Assembly: GCA_022843485.1 (NCBI GenBank)
Contig: JALHNM010000001.1
Coordinates: 248,001-312,000, forward strand
From: Fimbriimonadaceae bacterium
GTDB lineage: Bacteria; Armatimonadota; Fimbriimonadia; Fimbriimonadales; Fimbriimonadaceae
DNA: 64,000 nt
Reading direction: 5' to 3'
Position 1 is the first letter of the stretch, and every line of letters begins with the position of its first letter. Of this stretch, positions 17,883 to 25,821 are shown piece after piece. Under the pieces are notes generated by a model, which did not search any database, was not told the origin of the DNA, and saw nothing but the letters and a program-made list of their open reading frames with translations. The position numbers and the translations under genes were made by a program.

Positions 17883-18629
17883 TTAGGCCGTCCGGATGCC
17901 CTTAGCGAAGCCGCGGCAGTGGGGGAGTTGGGTCGCCGTATCGACGAGCTTCCACACCTCGACCGAGGGCCACCCGGCCGACATGACCATGTTCCCAAGG
18001 CACGCGAGCGTCGGCACCCACCAGTTGCTCGTGTTGCCGCCGTACTCGGTCGTCGGATAGAACTCCGCGACCATCTGCCGACCGGGGTAGCCCTGACCGA
18101 GACCGCCCCGGTACGGGCTGAAGTCGTCCAGGATCGCCGACTCCACGTAGATCTCGCCTTCGCAGATCAGGTTGAGCAAATCGAGCGCGAAGAGCGGGTG
18201 GCGCAGGTGGTAGAGCGTCCCGAAGAAGAACACGACGTCGAACTTGCCCAGTCGGTCCTCGGTCGCCTCGTAGACCGACATGTCGATCCGGTGGCAGACG
18301 TCCCGGCTGTACCCGAGCGCCTCGCGGCAAAAGTCGAAGGTCTCCCAGGCGCGGCGGTCGCCCGACCCGAGCTGGCCGAGGTCGTCGCTGAAGTCGTCGA
18401 TGGCCACGACTTCGCGGGCCCCGCGCTTGAGCGCTTCGAAGGTCCAGAACCCGTCCCAGGCGCCCACGTCGAGCACGCGCTTGCCCGTGAGGTCGTCCGG
18501 AATCCGGTACGCCTCGGGCGCGAGCGGCGCCCAGCCCGGCGTGAAGACCCCCCCGGGCAGTTCGATGCGGTGGTACCAGTACGGGAACCGGTCGATGCCG
18601 GTCTGGATCTGTGCGGCAGGCAGGGCCAT
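17883..18629 (-). CDS. CmoB-like class I SAM methyltransferase
   Basis: The 248-residue protein starts with FPYWYHRIELPGGVFTPGW, which matches the N-terminal pattern of the tRNA (mo5U34) carboxymethyl/methyltransferase family (Methyltransf_9, CmoB-type). The SAM site is KRVLDVGAWDGFWTFEALKRGA (about residues 50-71) with an acidic VAIDDF strand end, and FDVVFFFGTLYHLRHP follows as motif IV. It is shorter than true CmoB (about 320 residues), so it may act on small molecules or glycans and not on tRNA. It is divergent from the GT41 cluster by 81 bases, which allows a glycan-methylation role, but this is only context. Confidence 0.75.
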   Translation of the reverse strand: MALPAAQIQTGIDRFPYWYHRIELPGGVFTPGWAPLAPEAYRIPDDLTGKRVLDVGAWDGFWTFEALKRGAREVVAIDDFSDDLGQLGSGDRRAWETFDFCREALGYSRDVCHRIDMSVYEATEDRLGKFDVVFFFGTLYHLRHPLFALDLLNLICEGEIYVESAILDDFSPYRGGLGQGYPGRQMVAEFYPTTEYGGNTSNWWVPTLACLGNMVMSAGWPSVEVWKLVDTATQLPHCRGFAKGIRTA

Positions 18630-18710
18630 ACGTTTGAGTGTCGGCCCTACCCCTGAAAATCATCAGGGTTCAGGGCTCAAGACTTCGAGCAGGTTGCCAA
18701 GAATCCCCCC

Positions 18711-20366
18711 GTGGCGCTTCCAAGTCCGCTTTACCTTTCCACCCAAAACACGTTCGAGACAGCCGTCCAGCACCATCAGCATGGCGACTACTCGGGCGCG
18801 GAGGCGCTCTACCGTGCCGTTCTCGAGACCGCCCCGGGCCACCCGCTTGCCAACGCTTACTTGGGCGTGCTCCTGTGCCAGACCGGCCGGACGGCCGAAG
18901 GCGTGGCCTTTCTCGAGACCGCCCACATGCTCGACCCGGACGACGCGGAGACCCTGATCAACCTTGGCAACGCCTGTCGCATCGCGTCCCTAATCGACCG
19001 CTCGCTCGAGACTCTCAAGCGTGCGGTCCGGCTCGCCCCGCTCGAATCGTCCGCCTGGGCCAACCTCGGCGCCTCGCTCGTCCTTGCCGGTCGCTCCCAT
19101 TCGGCCGTCGCCCATCTTCGGAAGGCGGTCGAACTCGACCCGGCGAACCTGGGCGCCCGCTCCGACCTCCTGCTCACGATGCTCTACGACCCCGAGGCCT
19201 CGAAGGACGCCGAGCGAGAGGCGGCCGAGTTCGGCAAGCTCTTCGCGCCCGTCCCCCCCGTCCGCCCTGACCGACGCCTTCGCACGATCGCCTTCCTGAG
19301 CGGCCACTTCGGGAACCACCCGGTCGGGTTCTTCCTCGAGGGCCTGCTCCGGACGATCGACCGGAGTCGGTACCGGGTCGTGGCCCTCGTCAACCAGACC
19401 GCAGCCGACGCCCAGACCCAGTGCCTTCGCGCCCTCTTCGACGAGTGGTTCCCGGTCGCGAGCCTCGACGACGACGCCCTGGAAGCCCTGACCCGCCAGG
19501 TGGACGTGGATGCCCTGATCGACCTCGAGGGCCACACCGCTAAGCAGCGCGTCACGGCCCTCTCCCGGCGCCTCGCTCCCCTCCAGGTGAACTGGCTGGG
19601 CTTCTCTGGCACCTCCGGGCTCCCGTTCCACGACCTGCTGATCGGCGATCCGACCGTGACCCCGGCCCGCGAGGACGCCCGCGCCGTCGAGCGGGTCGCC
19701 CGGTTGCCCCGCAGCTTCGTGACGGTGCCCTTCGGCCGCCTCCCGGCCCCCCGGGTCATCCCGCCCGTCTCCCAGAACGGCCTCGTGACCTTCGGCTCGT
19801 TCGCCAACGTGGCCAAGCTGAGCGAGGAGACGGTGGCCCTCTGGGCCCGGATCCTCCACGCCGTCCCTGGCTCGAGGCTGCTCCTGAAGAGCGCGGCCCT
19901 CGGGAACCCGGGCGTCGCCGCCGATGTCGTCCACCGGTTCGCTGAGCACCACGTCCACGGCAGCCGCATCGCCGTCCGCGGGCTCATCGAGTGCCGCGAC
20001 GAGCACCTCGAGGCCTACTGTGACGTCGACGTGGCCCTCGATACCGTGCCCTACACCGGGGCGACGACCACCGTCGAGGCCCTCGCGATGGGCGTCCCGG
20101 TCGTGACCCTCGAGGGAGCGCGGTACAGCGCTCGGATGTCGGCCAGCCTCCTCCGCACCGCGGGGCTCGAGGACTGGGTCGCCCAGACCCCCGACGAGTA
20201 CGTGGCCAAGGCTGTGGCCCTCGCCCGCGAGGCAGCCGCGAACGGGCTCGACCGGCTCGGGCTCCGGGCCCGGCTCGAAGCGTCCCCGCTGGCCGACCTC
20301 GACGGGTTCGCCCGCGCCTTCGAGGCCGCCCTCGAAACTGCCTGGGAAGGCACCCCCTCCGCATGA
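18711..20366 (+). CDS. TPR-containing GT41 glycosyltransferase (O-GlcNAc transferase/SPINDLY-like), copy 1
   Basis: The 551-residue protein has about four TPR units (residues 10-150) followed by a GT41 catalytic region. Landmarks are FLSGHFGNHPVGFFLEG (N-terminal catalytic lobe with the HPVG motif), DALIDLEGHT, VNWLGFSGTSGLP, TFGSFANVAKLSEE with the Lys that matches the UDP-contacting lysine of OGT, and PYTGATTTVEALAMGVPVVTL (nucleotide-binding C-lobe). GT41 enzymes attach GlcNAc or fucose to Ser/Thr of proteins. The GTG start follows an AAGAAT box by 6 bases. It heads a three-gene run coupled by ATGA overlaps and faces the flagellin gene. Confidence 0.88.
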   Translation: MALPSPLYLSTQNTFETAVQHHQHGDYSGAEALYRAVLETAPGHPLANAYLGVLLCQTGRTAEGVAFLETAHMLDPDDAETLINLGNACRIASLIDRSLETLKRAVRLAPLESSAWANLGASLVLAGRSHSAVAHLRKAVELDPANLGARSDLLLTMLYDPEASKDAEREAAEFGKLFAPVPPVRPDRRLRTIAFLSGHFGNHPVGFFLEGLLRTIDRSRYRVVALVNQTAADAQTQCLRALFDEWFPVASLDDDALEALTRQVDVDALIDLEGHTAKQRVTALSRRLAPLQVNWLGFSGTSGLPFHDLLIGDPTVTPAREDARAVERVARLPRSFVTVPFGRLPAPRVIPPVSQNGLVTFGSFANVAKLSEETVALWARILHAVPGSRLLLKSAALGNPGVAADVVHRFAEHHVHGSRIAVRGLIECRDEHLEAYCDVDVALDTVPYTGATTTVEALAMGVPVVTLEGARYSARMSASLLRTAGLEDWVAQTPDEYVAKAVALAREAAANGLDRLGLRARLEASPLADLDGFARAFEAALETAWEGTPSA

Positions 20367-22141
20367 CGACCGTCACCCTCGACTCCGTACTCGAGGCCGC
20401 GCTCGCGCTCCACATGTCCGGCCGATTGGCCGAGGCCGAACCGGTCTACCGGCAGCTCGCGGTCGCCCAACCGGGCGACCCCCGGCCCTGGCACTTCCTG
20501 GGCGTCCTCCTCGGCCAGACCCATCGACCCGACGAGGCCGAACGAGCCCTCACCAAGGCCATCGAGCTCGCCCCCGACGACGCCGAGGCGTTGACGAACC
20601 TCGCGAACGTCGTGCGATCCCAGGGTCGGTACCGCGATTCGGCCGAGCTCTGTCGCCGGGCCATCGCCCTCAACCCGTCGCTCGCCGCGGCCTACGTCAA
20701 CCTCAGCGCCGCGGTCCGCATGACGCTTGGTATCGAAGAGGCGATCTCCGCCGCCGAGGAGGCGATCCGACTCGCCCCGGGCCTCGACCAGGGGCACTGC
20801 AACCTCGGCCACGCCCTCCTCTTCGCCGGTCGGGCGGAGGAAGCCGTGGGTGCCTTCCAGCAGGCCCTCGCCGGGAGCCCCCATCGCGAGGACATCCACC
20901 AGAACCTCCTCTTCTCGCTGCAGTACTCCGACCGTGCGCCCGCAGCCGCGATCGCCGACGAGACTCGAAGGTACGGGCGACGCTATCGACCGGTCCCCCG
21001 CCAGGTGCCGAACCGGCCGCTTCGGACGATCGGGTTCGTGTCCGGCGACTTCCGCCGCCATCCCGTCGGGCTGGTCGTGACCCCGCTCCTCGAGCGGCTG
21101 CGAGACCGCGGGTTCCGCCTCGTCGCCTTCTCCCAGGTCTTGGAGGAGGACGGCTGGACCGCCCGGACCAAGGCCGCCGTCCACGAGTTCCACCGTCTGC
21201 GGGACCTCGACCCGGCCTCCAGCGTCAACGTCGTCCGCGGGGCCGCCGTCGATCTCATGATTGACCTCGCCGGCCACAGCGCGGATAACCGGATGGACGT
21301 TATGGCCCTTGGGGCGGCGCCAGTACAAGCGACCTGGCTCGGTTACTCGGGCTCGACGGGGCTCCCGACCATCGATTGGCTCATCGGCGACCCCCATGTC
21401 ACCCCGGCGACAGAGGAGGCCCACCTGACCGAGCGGGTCGTCCGCCTTCGCGACGCCTTCCTCGCTACGGACCCCAACTACATCGAGGGCGGGCCGACGC
21501 CGCTCCCCGCCCTAGAGCCCTCCGCCGCCGTCACGTTCGCCAGCTTCAACAACATCGTGAAGGCCAGCGACTCGTGCCTTCGGGCCTGGGTCGCGGTGCT
21601 CGAAGCGGTCCCGAACGCCCGGTTCCTGATGAAGGGTCAGCATTTTTGCGACCCTTCCGTCCTCTCCCACTTCCGGGACCGGTTCCGGGCGGCTGGGGCG
21701 GACCTCTCGCGCGTCGAGCTCCGGGCCGGTGAGCCACTCGACAGGCACTGGGCTTCGTTCGGCGAGGTCGACGTCATGCTCGACACCTTCCCCTACACCG
21801 GGGCGACCACCACGGTGGAGGCCCTCGCGCTGGGCGTCCCGGTCGTGACGATGCGCGGAGACCGCTACGTCGGGCACATGAGCGAGAGCCTGCTCGCCAC
21901 CGTTGGCCGGTCCGAGTGGGTGGCCGACTCGGTCGAGCAGTACGCCGCGATCGCGTCCGGCCTCGTCGCGGACCTCCCGGCCTTGGCCGAGACTCGGGCC
22001 GCCCTTCGCCCCGAAACGCTCGCTTCGCCGCTCTGCGACCTGGACCGCTTCGCCGATTCGTTCGTCATGGCCTGTGAGCACGTGTGGGCCTCCTCGCAGA
22101 CGGCCCCCAACCCTGAAACCCGATCCCCCCAAACCCTATGA
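20363..22141 (+). CDS. TPR-containing GT41 glycosyltransferase (O-GlcNAc transferase/SPINDLY-like), copy 2
   Basis: The 592-residue paralogue has TPR units over residues about 8-180 (LHMSGRLAEAEPVYRQL, AERALTKAIELAPDDAEALTNLANV, ALLFAGRAEEAVGAFQQAL) and the GT41 landmarks GFVSGDFRRHPVGLVVTPL, DLMIDLAGHS, TWLGYSGSTGLP, TFASFNNIVKASDS with the conserved Lys, LMKGQHFCDP and PYTGATTTVEALALGVPVVTM. It starts inside the stop of copy 1 (ATGA). Flagellin Ser/Thr glycosylation is the leading idea from context; no experiment-based specificity can be read from sequence. Confidence 0.88.
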   Translation: MTTVTLDSVLEAALALHMSGRLAEAEPVYRQLAVAQPGDPRPWHFLGVLLGQTHRPDEAERALTKAIELAPDDAEALTNLANVVRSQGRYRDSAELCRRAIALNPSLAAAYVNLSAAVRMTLGIEEAISAAEEAIRLAPGLDQGHCNLGHALLFAGRAEEAVGAFQQALAGSPHREDIHQNLLFSLQYSDRAPAAAIADETRRYGRRYRPVPRQVPNRPLRTIGFVSGDFRRHPVGLVVTPLLERLRDRGFRLVAFSQVLEEDGWTARTKAAVHEFHRLRDLDPASSVNVVRGAAVDLMIDLAGHSADNRMDVMALGAAPVQATWLGYSGSTGLPTIDWLIGDPHVTPATEEAHLTERVVRLRDAFLATDPNYIEGGPTPLPALEPSAAVTFASFNNIVKASDSCLRAWVAVLEAVPNARFLMKGQHFCDPSVLSHFRDRFRAAGADLSRVELRAGEPLDRHWASFGEVDVMLDTFPYTGATTTVEALALGVPVVTMRGDRYVGHMSESLLATVGRSEWVADSVEQYAAIASGLVADLPALAETRAALRPETLASPLCDLDRFADSFVMACEHVWASSQTAPNPETRSPQTL

Positions 22142-24240
22142 GCCGTCTCCGCCGCCAAGCCGTCGCCTTTGCCACCGCCCGCCCAACTGAGCCTAGCCCC
22201 GCGGACCGTCTCGTCCAGGAAGGCTTCTTCGCGCACCAGCAGGGGCACGTCGAGGCCGCGTGCGAGAAGTACGCCGCCGCGATCCAGGCGGACCCCCAGC
22301 ATAACGACGCTCTCCGCCTGTGTGGCACCGCCGCCCTCCAACTTGGACGGCCGGCACAGGCCGTAGAGCTCCTTCAGGCGGCCCTCGCCGCCGATCCCCG
22401 CGACCTCCCGGCCATGACGAACCTCGCGAGCGCCTTCATGGCCCTCGGTCGACCCGAGGCGGCGCACAAAGCCTGCGAGGCTGCCTTGACCATCGCCCCC
22501 GACGACTACGACGCCCTGTACAACGACGGGAACGCATTGCTGGAGCTTGGGAGCTATGCGCGGGCCGCCGGGCGGTACCGCGAGGCCCTCGTGAAGCGAC
22601 CGGACGCGGCCTCGGCCCAGATGAACCTGGGCTTCGCCCTCCTCAAGCTCGGTCTGTACGCCGAGGCCCTGGCCGCCCTCGACCGAGCCACCGACCTCGC
22701 CCCCGCGAGCCCGAAGGCCAACTACGCCCGCGGGGTGGCGCTCTCCGCCCTCCACCGGAAGTCCGAGGCGGCTGCGGCCCTCGAGCGAGCGGTCGAGGCC
22801 GACCCCTGCCACGTCCGGGCCCGGGTCGCCCTCGCCGACGTGCTCCGCAACGAGAGCCGGGTCTCCGAAGCCCGGGCCCACCTCGTCGAGGCCCTCACTC
22901 TAGCCCCCGACGACGCAGAGGCCCACAATGGGATGGGCGACGTCCTCCTCTCCTTGGGCGACGCCCCGGCGGCGACGGCCGCTTTCGAGAGGGCGGCCCG
23001 CTCCGACCCCGGCACCCCCGGGTACGGGAGCAACGTGGTCTTCTCGATGCACTTCGACGAGCGGGTCTCCGCCCAGGACATCCGGGTCGAGGCCGAGCGG
23101 TGGGCACGGCGACACGCCTCGGGCACGCCCTCGCGCAGCCGACCGAGCGGGCCGATTCGCCGGGTGGGCTTCCTCTCGCCCGACCTCCACTTCCACCCGG
23201 TCGGCCTCTTCCTCGCCCCGCTCCTGGGCCGCCTCGAGGGGTTCGAGACGGTGCTGTTCTCGAACGAGAGCGTGGTCGACCACGTCACCGAGCGTCTCCA
23301 ACGCGACGCGGGCGGGTGGTGGGACGTCTCGTGCCTCGAGCCCGCCGAGGTCGCCGACTTGGTCCGTGAAGAGGGCATCGACGTGCTCATCGACCTCGCC
23401 GGTCACACGAGCCGTACCCGGCTCGACGTGTGCGCCCTCGCCCCGGCCCCCCTCTTGCTGAGTTGGCTGGGCTACTCGGGCACGACGGGGATGGGCCAGT
23501 TCGACGGGCTCATCGCTGACCGCCACTTGATCCCGCCGGGGCACGAGGATGGGTACACCGAGCCGGTCTTGCGCCTCCCCGACTCCTTCGTTTGCTACGA
23601 ACCCCCGGTCCGGGGCCCGGACGTCGCCGTGACCCCCGCCGTGCGGAACGGCTTCGTCACCTTCGGCTGCGTGAACTCGACGAACAAGGTCTCGGACGCC
23701 GCCCTCCGGTCGTGGGCCGAGATTTTGCGGCGGGTGCCGGACGCCCGCCTCGTGCTGGGCCACCATGCGCTCGGCGACCCCGCGGTCCGGGCGGCGGTGC
23801 TCGGTCGGCTGGGGGCATTCGGAGCCGACCTCGACCGGGTCTCGACCCGGGGGGCGCTGCCCCGCGAGGAGTACCTGGCCAGCTTCGCCGAGATCGACGT
23901 CGCCCTCGATACCCTGCCCTACACCGGGGCGACGACGACCTGCGACACATTGTGGACCGGTACCCCCGTCCTCACTCTCGCAGGGGACCGGTACTCGGCC
24001 CGAATGTCGGCCAGCCTGCTGGCGACCGTCGGACGCCTTGATCTTGTCGCCCATTCCCTGGACGAGTACGTAGACCGCGCCGTGTCGCTCGCCGCGGACG
24101 TCCCGCGCCTGGACGCCGCCCGCCGAGCGCTCCGGGGCCAGCTGTCGACCTCGCCCCTCTGCGACGCCGACCGCTTCGCCCGGGGGTTCCAGTCACTCCT
24201 CGAGGAGGCCTGGGCTGGCCGGTTCGCCACCGCCGCCTGA
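22138..24240 (+). CDS. TPR-containing GT41 glycosyltransferase (O-GlcNAc transferase/SPINDLY-like), copy 3
   Basis: The longest copy (700 residues) has about seven to eight TPR units (residues 25-310), then GT41 landmarks FLSPDLHFHPVGLFLAPL, DVLIDLAGHTS, SWLGYSGTTGMG, TFGCVNSTNKVSDAAL with the conserved Lys, and PYTGATTTCDTLWTGTPVLTL. One difference stands out: where copies 1 and 2 read LLLK or FLMK before the ALGxP-like stretch, this copy reads LVLGHHALGDP, so that Lys is absent. The larger TPR superhelix suggests a different protein target. Its ATG overlaps the stop of copy 2 (ATGA). Its own stop is 86 bases from the convergent flagellin stop. Confidence 0.88.
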   Translation: MSRLRRQAVAFATARPTEPSPADRLVQEGFFAHQQGHVEAACEKYAAAIQADPQHNDALRLCGTAALQLGRPAQAVELLQAALAADPRDLPAMTNLASAFMALGRPEAAHKACEAALTIAPDDYDALYNDGNALLELGSYARAAGRYREALVKRPDAASAQMNLGFALLKLGLYAEALAALDRATDLAPASPKANYARGVALSALHRKSEAAAALERAVEADPCHVRARVALADVLRNESRVSEARAHLVEALTLAPDDAEAHNGMGDVLLSLGDAPAATAAFERAARSDPGTPGYGSNVVFSMHFDERVSAQDIRVEAERWARRHASGTPSRSRPSGPIRRVGFLSPDLHFHPVGLFLAPLLGRLEGFETVLFSNESVVDHVTERLQRDAGGWWDVSCLEPAEVADLVREEGIDVLIDLAGHTSRTRLDVCALAPAPLLLSWLGYSGTTGMGQFDGLIADRHLIPPGHEDGYTEPVLRLPDSFVCYEPPVRGPDVAVTPAVRNGFVTFGCVNSTNKVSDAALRSWAEILRRVPDARLVLGHHALGDPAVRAAVLGRLGAFGADLDRVSTRGALPREEYLASFAEIDVALDTLPYTGATTTCDTLWTGTPVLTLAGDRYSARMSASLLATVGRLDLVAHSLDEYVDRAVSLAADVPRLDAARRALRGQLSTSPLCDADRFARGFQSLLEEAWAGRFATAA

Positions 24241-24252
24241 GGCCGGGCACAC

Positions 24253-24284
24253 AAAAAAGGGCCCCAGGGCAGGGGCCCTGGGGC
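24253..24284 (-). terminator. Rho-independent terminator of the flagellin gene
   Basis: On the minus strand a perfect 10-bp stem GCCCCAGGGC / GCCCTGGGGC with a 4-base loop is followed by CC and six T residues. It begins 42 bases after the flagellin stop. This is the clearest intrinsic terminator in the window. Read from the plus strand, the same stem also closes the GT41 run but with its A-run on the wrong side. Confidence 0.9.
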
Positions 24285-24326
24285 AAAGTGGAAGCAGTAT
24301 GGCTTGGTCGGTGGTGTGCGGTCGGT

Positions 24327-25727
24327 TTATCGGAGCAGGCTCAGCACCGACTGGGGCGCCGAGTTGGCCTGCGCCAAGACCGAGAGGCCGGCCTGCTGCA
24401 GGATCTGCAGCTTGGTGTAGTTGGTCATCTCCTCGGCGACGTCGACGTCTCGGATGGACGACTCGGTGGCGACGAGGCTCTCCCGGGTGATGCTGAGGGA
24501 GCGCATGTTCGACTCGATCGTGTTGCGCATGAACGAGCCGATGTTGCCCCGGGCGCTCGAGACCGTGGCGACGGCCGCATCGAGGGCGCTCAACGCCGCG
24601 GTCTGGTTCGACCCGGTGATGTCGAGCGAGCTGAGCCCCAGCGACCCAGCGCTGAAGTTCTGCAGGCTGAGCTGGGCGGTCTGGTCGCCCGCCGAACCGA
24701 TCTGGAACGAGCTCGAACCCGCGAGGACCTGCACGACGCCGGTGCGGTTGGTGGCGGTGTTCCCCGTGGCCGTGACGTTGATCGTGTTGCCATCCGTGTC
24801 CTTGAGCTGGAGGCCCCGGCCCTGGTTGAAGGTCGCGCTCACCGTGTTGGTGCCGTAGGTATAGGTCACCGCGGCGACGGCGTTCGCGCCGGCGTCGGAG
24901 ACGGTGCCCGCCGCCGTGAAGAGCGTGCCCGCCGTGCCCGTGGTGACGGTAACGGTCGTGTCGCTGCCGTAAGCGGCCGCCGTGAAGGAGACGCCCGCGC
25001 TCGCGGCCCAACTCGCCCGGACGCCCGTGTCGGTTTGCTGGGCGTTGACCATATCGAGGACGTTCTGGACGGTCTGGCCCGCCTGGACGGTGAAGGCCTT
25101 GCCGTTGATCGAGAAGGTGCCAGCGGTCACGGTCGCCGTGGCGGCCGAGTAGGTCTGGGTGCCCGTCACGACCGCCTGGTCGGCAGCCGTCGTGATGTTC
25201 ACGCTGAGCATCCCGTTGCTGTTCACCGCGGCACCAGCAAATGTGCCGGTGAGCGATGCGGACGAGAAGTTGGTCGCGTCGGTGACCGTGCCGGTGACAC
25301 CGGCGCCACCGTTCAGGAGCTTGCGGCTGCCGAACGCCGTCGTCGAGGCGACCCGGTCGATCGAGGTGAGGATGTTGTTGAGCTGCGTCTGGTTCGCCGC
25401 CTTCTGGGTGGCGTCAACCGAGCTGTTGCCGTTGGCGACGGCGAGAGCCCGGGCGTCGCGGAGCAGCTTGCTCACCTCGTCGAGGGCGCCGTCGGCGGTC
25501 TTGGCGTAGTTGAGGGCGTCCTGGTTGTTACGCAGGGCGGCGCTCATGCCCGAGATCTGGCTGCGGAAGTTCTCGCTGGCGATCAGGCCGGCGGGGTCGT
25601 CCGCACCCGAGTTGATGCGAAGACCGGTCGACAGGCGGGTGATCGAACGGCTCACCTCGAGGCCCGTCGAGCTCAGGTTGCGATAGGCCGTCATGGCCGT
25701 GACGTTGTTGTTGATTCGGAACGACAT
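24327..25727 (-). CDS. Flagellin
   Basis: The 466-residue protein has the conserved flagellin ends that pack into the filament core: SFRINNNVTAMTAYRNL, then SRSITRLSTGLRINSGADDPAGLIASE at the N-terminus, and IGSFMRNTIESNMRSLSITRESL with MTNYTKLQILQQAG at the C-terminus. The central 200 residues are Ala/Thr/Val-rich with a flagellin_IN-type repeat (AGTFSINGKAFTVQAGQTVQNVLDMVNA), and the region is full of Thr and Ser, good acceptors for O-glycans. The ATG at 25727 was chosen because GGAGGAA lies 5 bases upstream, the strongest SD in the window. The gene faces three GT41 genes. Confidence 0.96.
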   Translation of the reverse strand: MSFRINNNVTAMTAYRNLSSTGLEVSRSITRLSTGLRINSGADDPAGLIASENFRSQISGMSAALRNNQDALNYAKTADGALDEVSKLLRDARALAVANGNSSVDATQKAANQTQLNNILTSIDRVASTTAFGSRKLLNGGAGVTGTVTDATNFSSASLTGTFAGAAVNSNGMLSVNITTAADQAVVTGTQTYSAATATVTAGTFSINGKAFTVQAGQTVQNVLDMVNAQQTDTGVRASWAASAGVSFTAAAYGSDTTVTVTTGTAGTLFTAAGTVSDAGANAVAAVTYTYGTNTVSATFNQGRGLQLKDTDGNTINVTATGNTATNRTGVVQVLAGSSSFQIGSAGDQTAQLSLQNFSAGSLGLSSLDITGSNQTAALSALDAAVATVSSARGNIGSFMRNTIESNMRSLSITRESLVATESSIRDVDVAEEMTNYTKLQILQQAGLSVLAQANSAPQSVLSLLR

Positions 25728-25821
25728 GTCTTCCTCCGTGAAGCGGTTGTCTGCGGACGCTGGGTCGTCCTGACCCGTCCGTAAGGTCACCTTCCAAAGC
25801 CCGCCCTCTCACGGGCCCGTA

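Follow-up and report, generated by a model that had tools for sequence, protein, structure and literature searches.

A divergent methyltransferase gene and three tandem TPR-GT41 glycosyltransferase genes beside a flagellin gene in Fimbriimonadaceae: a candidate flagellin O-glycosylation module

The window, a 64,000-nucleotide stretch of a Fimbriimonadaceae genome (assembly GCA_022843485.1, here G000; contig JALHNM010000001.1, positions 248,001 to 312,000), includes three tandem genes coding for GT41 glycosyltransferases with N-terminal TPR units, a flagellin gene convergent with the last of them and a methyltransferase gene divergent from the first (Table 1). The PF13844 scores of all three GT41 proteins are far above the cut-off of 25, and TPR families are found in each. 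The genes overlap by ATGA at both junctions (20363-20366 and 22138-22141), and 86 bases separate the stop codon of GT41-3 from that of flagellin A. The flagellin ORF extends from 24327 to 25790 on the reverse strand, and its likely start, at MSFRINNN, corresponds to position 25727. An earlier sequence-only reading had described this trio with its overlaps, the 86-base spacing and the flagellin start, and Pfam matches and the junction sequence confirmed the description. The same reading put the TPR units at about 4, 5-6 and 7-8; a strict motif count gives 3 and 4 for GT41-1 and GT41-2, fewer than proposed, and 8 for GT41-3, as proposed. The 2.96-Mb assembly includes no GT41 genes beyond these three (six matches, two per gene). 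It does include two further flagellins and one FlgL-like protein, which was the weakest match and was assigned to FlgL by reading.

Table 1. Features of the methyltransferase-GT41-flagellin locus (positions in the window)
Feature	Coordinates	Strand	Remarks
SAM-dependent methyltransferase (TIGR04290/CmoB-like), divergent from the GT41 array	17883..18629	-	PF08003, TIGR04290
Divergent promoter region, methyltransferase/array, 81 bases	18630..18710	.	Weak sigma-28-like match, suggestive only
GT41-1, short-TPR GT41 glycosyltransferase, 551 aa	18711..20366	+	PF13844 108 bits; tree partner is a G001 copy
GT41-2, short-TPR GT41 glycosyltransferase, 592 aa	20363..22141	+	PF13844 112 bits; tree partners are G001 and G008 copies
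GT41-3, long-TPR (8 units) GT41 glycosyltransferase, 700 aa	22138..24240	+	PF13844 136 bits
Flagellin A, probable substrate, convergent with GT41-3	24327..25727	-	Flagellin_N/C

The methyltransferase, a protein of 248 amino acids that the sequence-only reading had overlooked, is best matched by TIGR04290 (E 5e-26), yet below the cut-off of that profile; its match to PF08003 is above the cut-off. Identification as the CmoB tRNA methyltransferase was rejected, as the best PDB match amounts to 36 of 251 profile positions and the NCBIfam scores are below their cut-offs. The predicted structure had a mean pLDDT of 42.5 and was unusable. Orthologues with at least 62% identity are present in 16 of the 85 genomes of the family, a 17th match at 39% identity being a more distant homologue; 14 of the 16 orthologues have GT41 genes as neighbours. 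The two remaining cases are G081, where the methyltransferase and GT41 genes are on separate contigs, and G022, a 72% complete genome in which the methyltransferase was found and GT41 was not. In the latter (L111) the gene is flanked by dus- and murB-like genes.

The catalytic halves of GT41-1, GT41-2 and GT41-3 show pairwise identities of 42-44%, which excludes a recent duplication. In trees the three proteins belong to separate groups, and their relatives come from G001, G008 and G016, several of the deeper forks being weakly supported; the GT41 fragments of G088 and G003 and the second GT41 of G016 were left out. Copy number in the arrays of relatives varies from one to four, and therefore the triple array that had been singled out as unusual is real in this genome but three copies are not the rule. 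Most arrays consist of one copy of about 675-735 amino acids plus one to three copies of about 510-610. The presence of a long and a short TPR class, maintained as old paralogues, fits a division of labour among the enzymes, although it is no proof that TPR length selects the target, as the sequence-only reading had proposed.

The nearest relative of GT41-3 of solved structure is the plant SPINDLY protein (7y4i, E 2.9e-91), and an alignment of the two was used to map the SPINDLY residues. All three window enzymes keep the catalytic residues His495 and Lys665 together with Tyr744, Thr748 and Thr749 (SPINDLY numbering), with Pro at position 496, which is Ser in SPINDLY, and Ala at 747. Throughout the arrays that are accompanied by the methyltransferase, Lys665, Tyr744, Thr748 and Thr749 are kept in all GT41 copies. 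His495 is likewise present in all those read over their N-terminal half (the gene call of one G088 copy being short). As the GT41 family includes OGT and UDP-GlcNAc is always available in cells, the enzymes could act as O-GlcNAc transferases of the human type, or in polysaccharide synthesis, with no tie to the flagellum. We consider this very improbable, because no polysaccharide genes adjoin the array and because Tyr744 occupies the position of Cys917 in human OGT, where, as argued in the part of PMC9715652 that was available, it leaves too little room for GlcNAc and clashes with it. This residue favours a sugar smaller than GlcNAc, which is thus the most likely kind of donor, and GDP-fucose is the first candidate.

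The gene gmd is found in G000 and in 15 of the 16 methyltransferase-bearing genomes and is also common where the module is absent. Its co-occurrence (9/9 against 13/28, Fisher p 0.004, calculated ignoring phylogeny) was rejected as proof of GDP-fucose: G107 has the module and the methyltransferase and no gmd, so that GDP-fucose made by Gmd is no strict requirement, and G102, G103 and G105, with eroded active sites (see below), do have gmd. The co-occurrence can be considered a weak hint. A separate hint of protein O-fucosylation in bacteria is found on plasmid p2 of Azospirillum sp. TSA2s (L193:6882-9824), where a TPR-GT41 gene is preceded, at a distance of 57 bases, by a GDP-L-fucose synthase gene of the same strand. 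G000 has no match to PF01973, presumably the Pfam family that holds Maf (library name MptE-like), and no true NeuB was found in it, the best match being partial with 33 bits as compared to 225-334 bits for the strong NeuB matches of relatives. The absence of both excludes the pseudaminic acid chemistry of the FlmG type.

GT41 is uncommon in the phylum: a match at E 1e-10 was obtained in 38 of 291 genomes, 37 of them in the family of the window. The search of relatives (61 genomes) identified flagellin in 57 and GT41 in 19, and 103 stretches around GT41 or flagellin genes were compared, with genes called by a purpose-written codon-score caller and not taken from annotation. The flagellin locus has the same order across the family: an asparaginase-like gene (Pfam), c4, flagellin, c11 and two long helicase/nuclease-like genes, AddB/AddA by eye. 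The c11 product, of about 200 amino acids, gave no match in a Pfam search. While c11 directly adjoins flagellin in the GT41-less genomes G005, G012 and G024, methyltransferase and GT41 genes lie between the two in G008, G015, G083 and G088. The empty sites indicate that the module entered at this point in an ancestor. The inserts consist of methyltransferase and GT41 genes only, with no sugar-synthesis genes.

A GT41 gene is convergent with flagellin, at a distance of 56-132 bases, in 15 of the 24 genomes of this GT41 clade (G000, G001, G008, G015, G081, G082, G083, G088 and G102-G108), which belong to the genera g1, g8, g15, g16 and g30. The other nine (G002, G004, G009, G016, G030, G033, G089, G100 and G101), some of them with short contigs, lack this arrangement, and the adjacency has been lost in at least four lineages, the groups concerned being G002, G004/G033/G089, G009/G100/G101, G016 and G030.

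The combination is also found outside the family. A tblastn search of plasmids with GT41-3 produced 84 records, every one below 60% identity. Flagellar genes were near GT41 in seven of the 17 loci examined; in the other ten none was present in the stretch, the unannotated ones having been scanned for flagellin only. Flagellin is within 8 kb in three: Burkholderia glumae pBGF3, with the order flagellin-fliD-fliT-GT41-vioA, a Hyphomicrobiales UR115 plasmid, with three flagellins around GT41, and Cupriavidus campinensis, with 4.6 kb between the two genes. In four Azospirillum loci, which are near relatives of each other, flaF is less than 3 kb from GT41. A scan of named genomes with GT41-3 gave two loci only, and at L069 the stretch examined includes no flagellin. 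Eleven GT41 enzymes, nearly all with methyltransferase domains, are described in the flagellin islands of 198 Enterobacteriaceae strains in the available part of De Maayer and Cowan (2016, PMC4875605). Taken with these islands and the plasmid loci, the window locus makes GT41, methyltransferase and flagellin a recurring set.

The sequence-only reading had proposed a dedicated flagellin glycosylation set and had named conservation of the GT41-flagellin neighbourhood in relatives as a check. The neighbourhood proved to be conserved in the 15 genomes listed above and to recur in unrelated bacteria, so that GT41 arrays do occur beside flagellin in relatives. Dedication to flagellin is less well served, since the adjacency goes back to one insertion, was lost in several lineages, and the Ser/Thr content of the flagellin is not distinctive. 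These observations weigh against a module, and the convergent flagellin/c11 junction is a point at which an insertion would cost the cell little. The array could thus glycosylate other exported or cytoplasmic proteins, its position being merely that of a harmless insertion site. The single insertion and the empty sites in relatives agree with this possibility, as do the lineages in which the array was separated from flagellin while the methyltransferase stayed with the array, and a second GT41 clade has members near a PilB-type ATPase gene (two loci, G015 and G003). We nevertheless regard it as unlikely, because the adjacency survived deep divergence across five genera, because TPR-GT41 and flagellin genes are neighbours in unrelated bacteria (the plasmid loci, and the islands in the part of PMC4875605 available), and because enzymes encoded at a distant position could still act on flagellin in trans. 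The conserved neighbourhood and its recurrence make flagellin glycosylation the best reading.

The genes of the second GT41 clade are dispersed (L075-L078 in G003, six called; L074 in G015; L086 in G021) and mostly code for Ser at SPINDLY position 496. A FlgD-like gene, identified by eye, lies no more than 8 kb from one of these loci. Six divergent GT41-like genes of G020 (L089-L092) have Trp at the position of SPINDLY Tyr744.

The genus g30, represented by eight genomes, shows a different state of the locus. G107 has the methyltransferase and two GT41 genes with intact active sites. The other seven genomes have no methyltransferase and a single long GT41 copy, all of one clade, in which position 495 holds Thr or Ser instead of His, position 744 Ala, Val, Ser or Cys instead of Tyr, and position 748 Met, Ile or Gln instead of Thr, with Lys665 retained. 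Six of these seven copies remain convergent with flagellin. The dN/dS values in the eroded clade, 0.02 for G105/G106 and 0.13 for G102/G108, indicate purifying selection (dS was saturated in the three remaining pairs). Among five eroded copies the TPR half is ahead of the catalytic half in conservation in 10 of 10 pairs, and among ten intact long copies the catalytic half is ahead in 45 of 45; neither set is made up of independent pairs, and the eroded copies are closer to each other than the intact ones, although G004/G033 and G009/G101, two close pairs of intact copies, likewise have the catalytic half ahead. Either these proteins no longer catalyse transfer and retain TPR binding, or they have changed their donor; an eroded site together with a conserved TPR half suggests a non-catalytic, flagellin-binding role. 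It is conceivable, if doubtful, that the long-TPR GT41 is primarily a flagellin binder whose activity can be shed, and that in g30 a transferase has turned into a non-catalytic flagellin reader or chaperone. The broader proposal, that TPR-GT41 proteins are chiefly chaperones or regulators that bind flagellin, catalysis being of secondary importance or, in one genus, gone, draws on the same seven genomes, on the purifying selection in their clade, on the better conserved TPR half and on the position of six of the copies beside flagellin; it appears quite improbable, given that the arrays with a methyltransferase have intact active sites and that the catalytic half leads in all 45 pairs of their long copies.

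The Thr/Ser-rich centre of flagellin A that had been noted before is real, with a Ser/Thr fraction of 0.27, but ordinary, as the 22 flagellins from GT41-less genomes have fractions of 0.20-0.30 (the truncated flagellin of G004, L119, was left out). The idea that Ser/Thr enrichment marks glycosylated flagellins was rejected, as flagellins with and without GT41 do not differ. Flagellin B (G000:C1:567551; L100:9540-10943) is 91% identical to flagellin A, and in many relatives the A and B copies pair within the genome, which points to concerted evolution of these unlinked genes. Flagellin C (L101:8590-10044 and other loci), often a neighbour of ParA- and ParB-like genes by eye, is preceded in most genomes by a clear sigma-28-like element, TAAAGTT...GCCGA, that is largely missing from flagellins A and B. 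The intergenic regions between methyltransferase and GT41 genes have mean sigma-28-like z scores of 1.8 and 1.5 against 0.26 for 444 control scores, a weak excess. The genomes are related, however, several sites are only 7-11 bases from start codons, and flagellin A lacks the element; co-regulation of array and flagellin by such a promoter is therefore not claimed, and its lack at flagellin A is a point against the module.

We know of no flagellin link for XcOGT and TtOGT, two bacterial GT41 enzymes of solved structure. Like the window enzymes, both have Tyr at the position related to donor size (PMC9715652, available part). SPINDLY, the Arabidopsis protein O-fucosyltransferase (7y4i; PMC9715652, same part), shares the five residues mapped above; it differs at position 496 and in its host, and GDP-fucose is here a candidate donor. 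FlmG of Caulobacter also combines an N-terminal TPR region with a GT-B domain and carries out cytoplasmic flagellin O-glycosylation without Maf; its TPR domain binds flagellins, and the C-terminal GT domain alone fails to restore modification (PMC7591256, from the portion available). FlmG requires pseudaminic acid made by NeuB, which has no true counterpart in G000, and one enzyme serves six flagellins as opposed to three enzymes and three flagellins in G000. The Enterobacteriaceae islands share with the window a SPINDLY-type GT41 beside flagellin and a linked AdoMet methyltransferase, which in the part of PMC4875605 available is nearly always in the same protein and here is a separate divergent gene. 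The arrays of the window type differ further in having up to four GT41 paralogues and an insert free of sugar-synthesis genes; they belong to another phylum and are inherited vertically, where the inheritance of the islands is patchy. As such, a GT41 locus for flagellin glycosylation is therefore of a known kind. What looks new is the presence of several old GT41 paralogues, the separate methyltransferase and a related genus with an apparently dead surviving copy; searches of the open-licence literature for work that connects GT41 with flagellin in such bacteria gave no paper.

Considering gene order, common ancestry and active sites together, we think that the array and its methyltransferase probably constitute a cytoplasmic flagellin O-glycosylation module. 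The TPR superhelices of the three enzymes would capture newly made flagellin, and sugar would be transferred from a soluble nucleotide-sugar to Ser/Thr residues prior to export. The long-TPR copy may be the core enzyme, with the short-TPR copies serving other sites or other flagellins, and the methyltransferase probably methylates the sugar, or flagellin. How O-glycosyltransferases choose their targets is poorly understood. This one locus, with one flagellin, presents a graded series, from no enzyme through one eroded enzyme to two, three and four paralogues of two TPR classes, and such natural variants would allow TPR reading and catalysis to be told apart.
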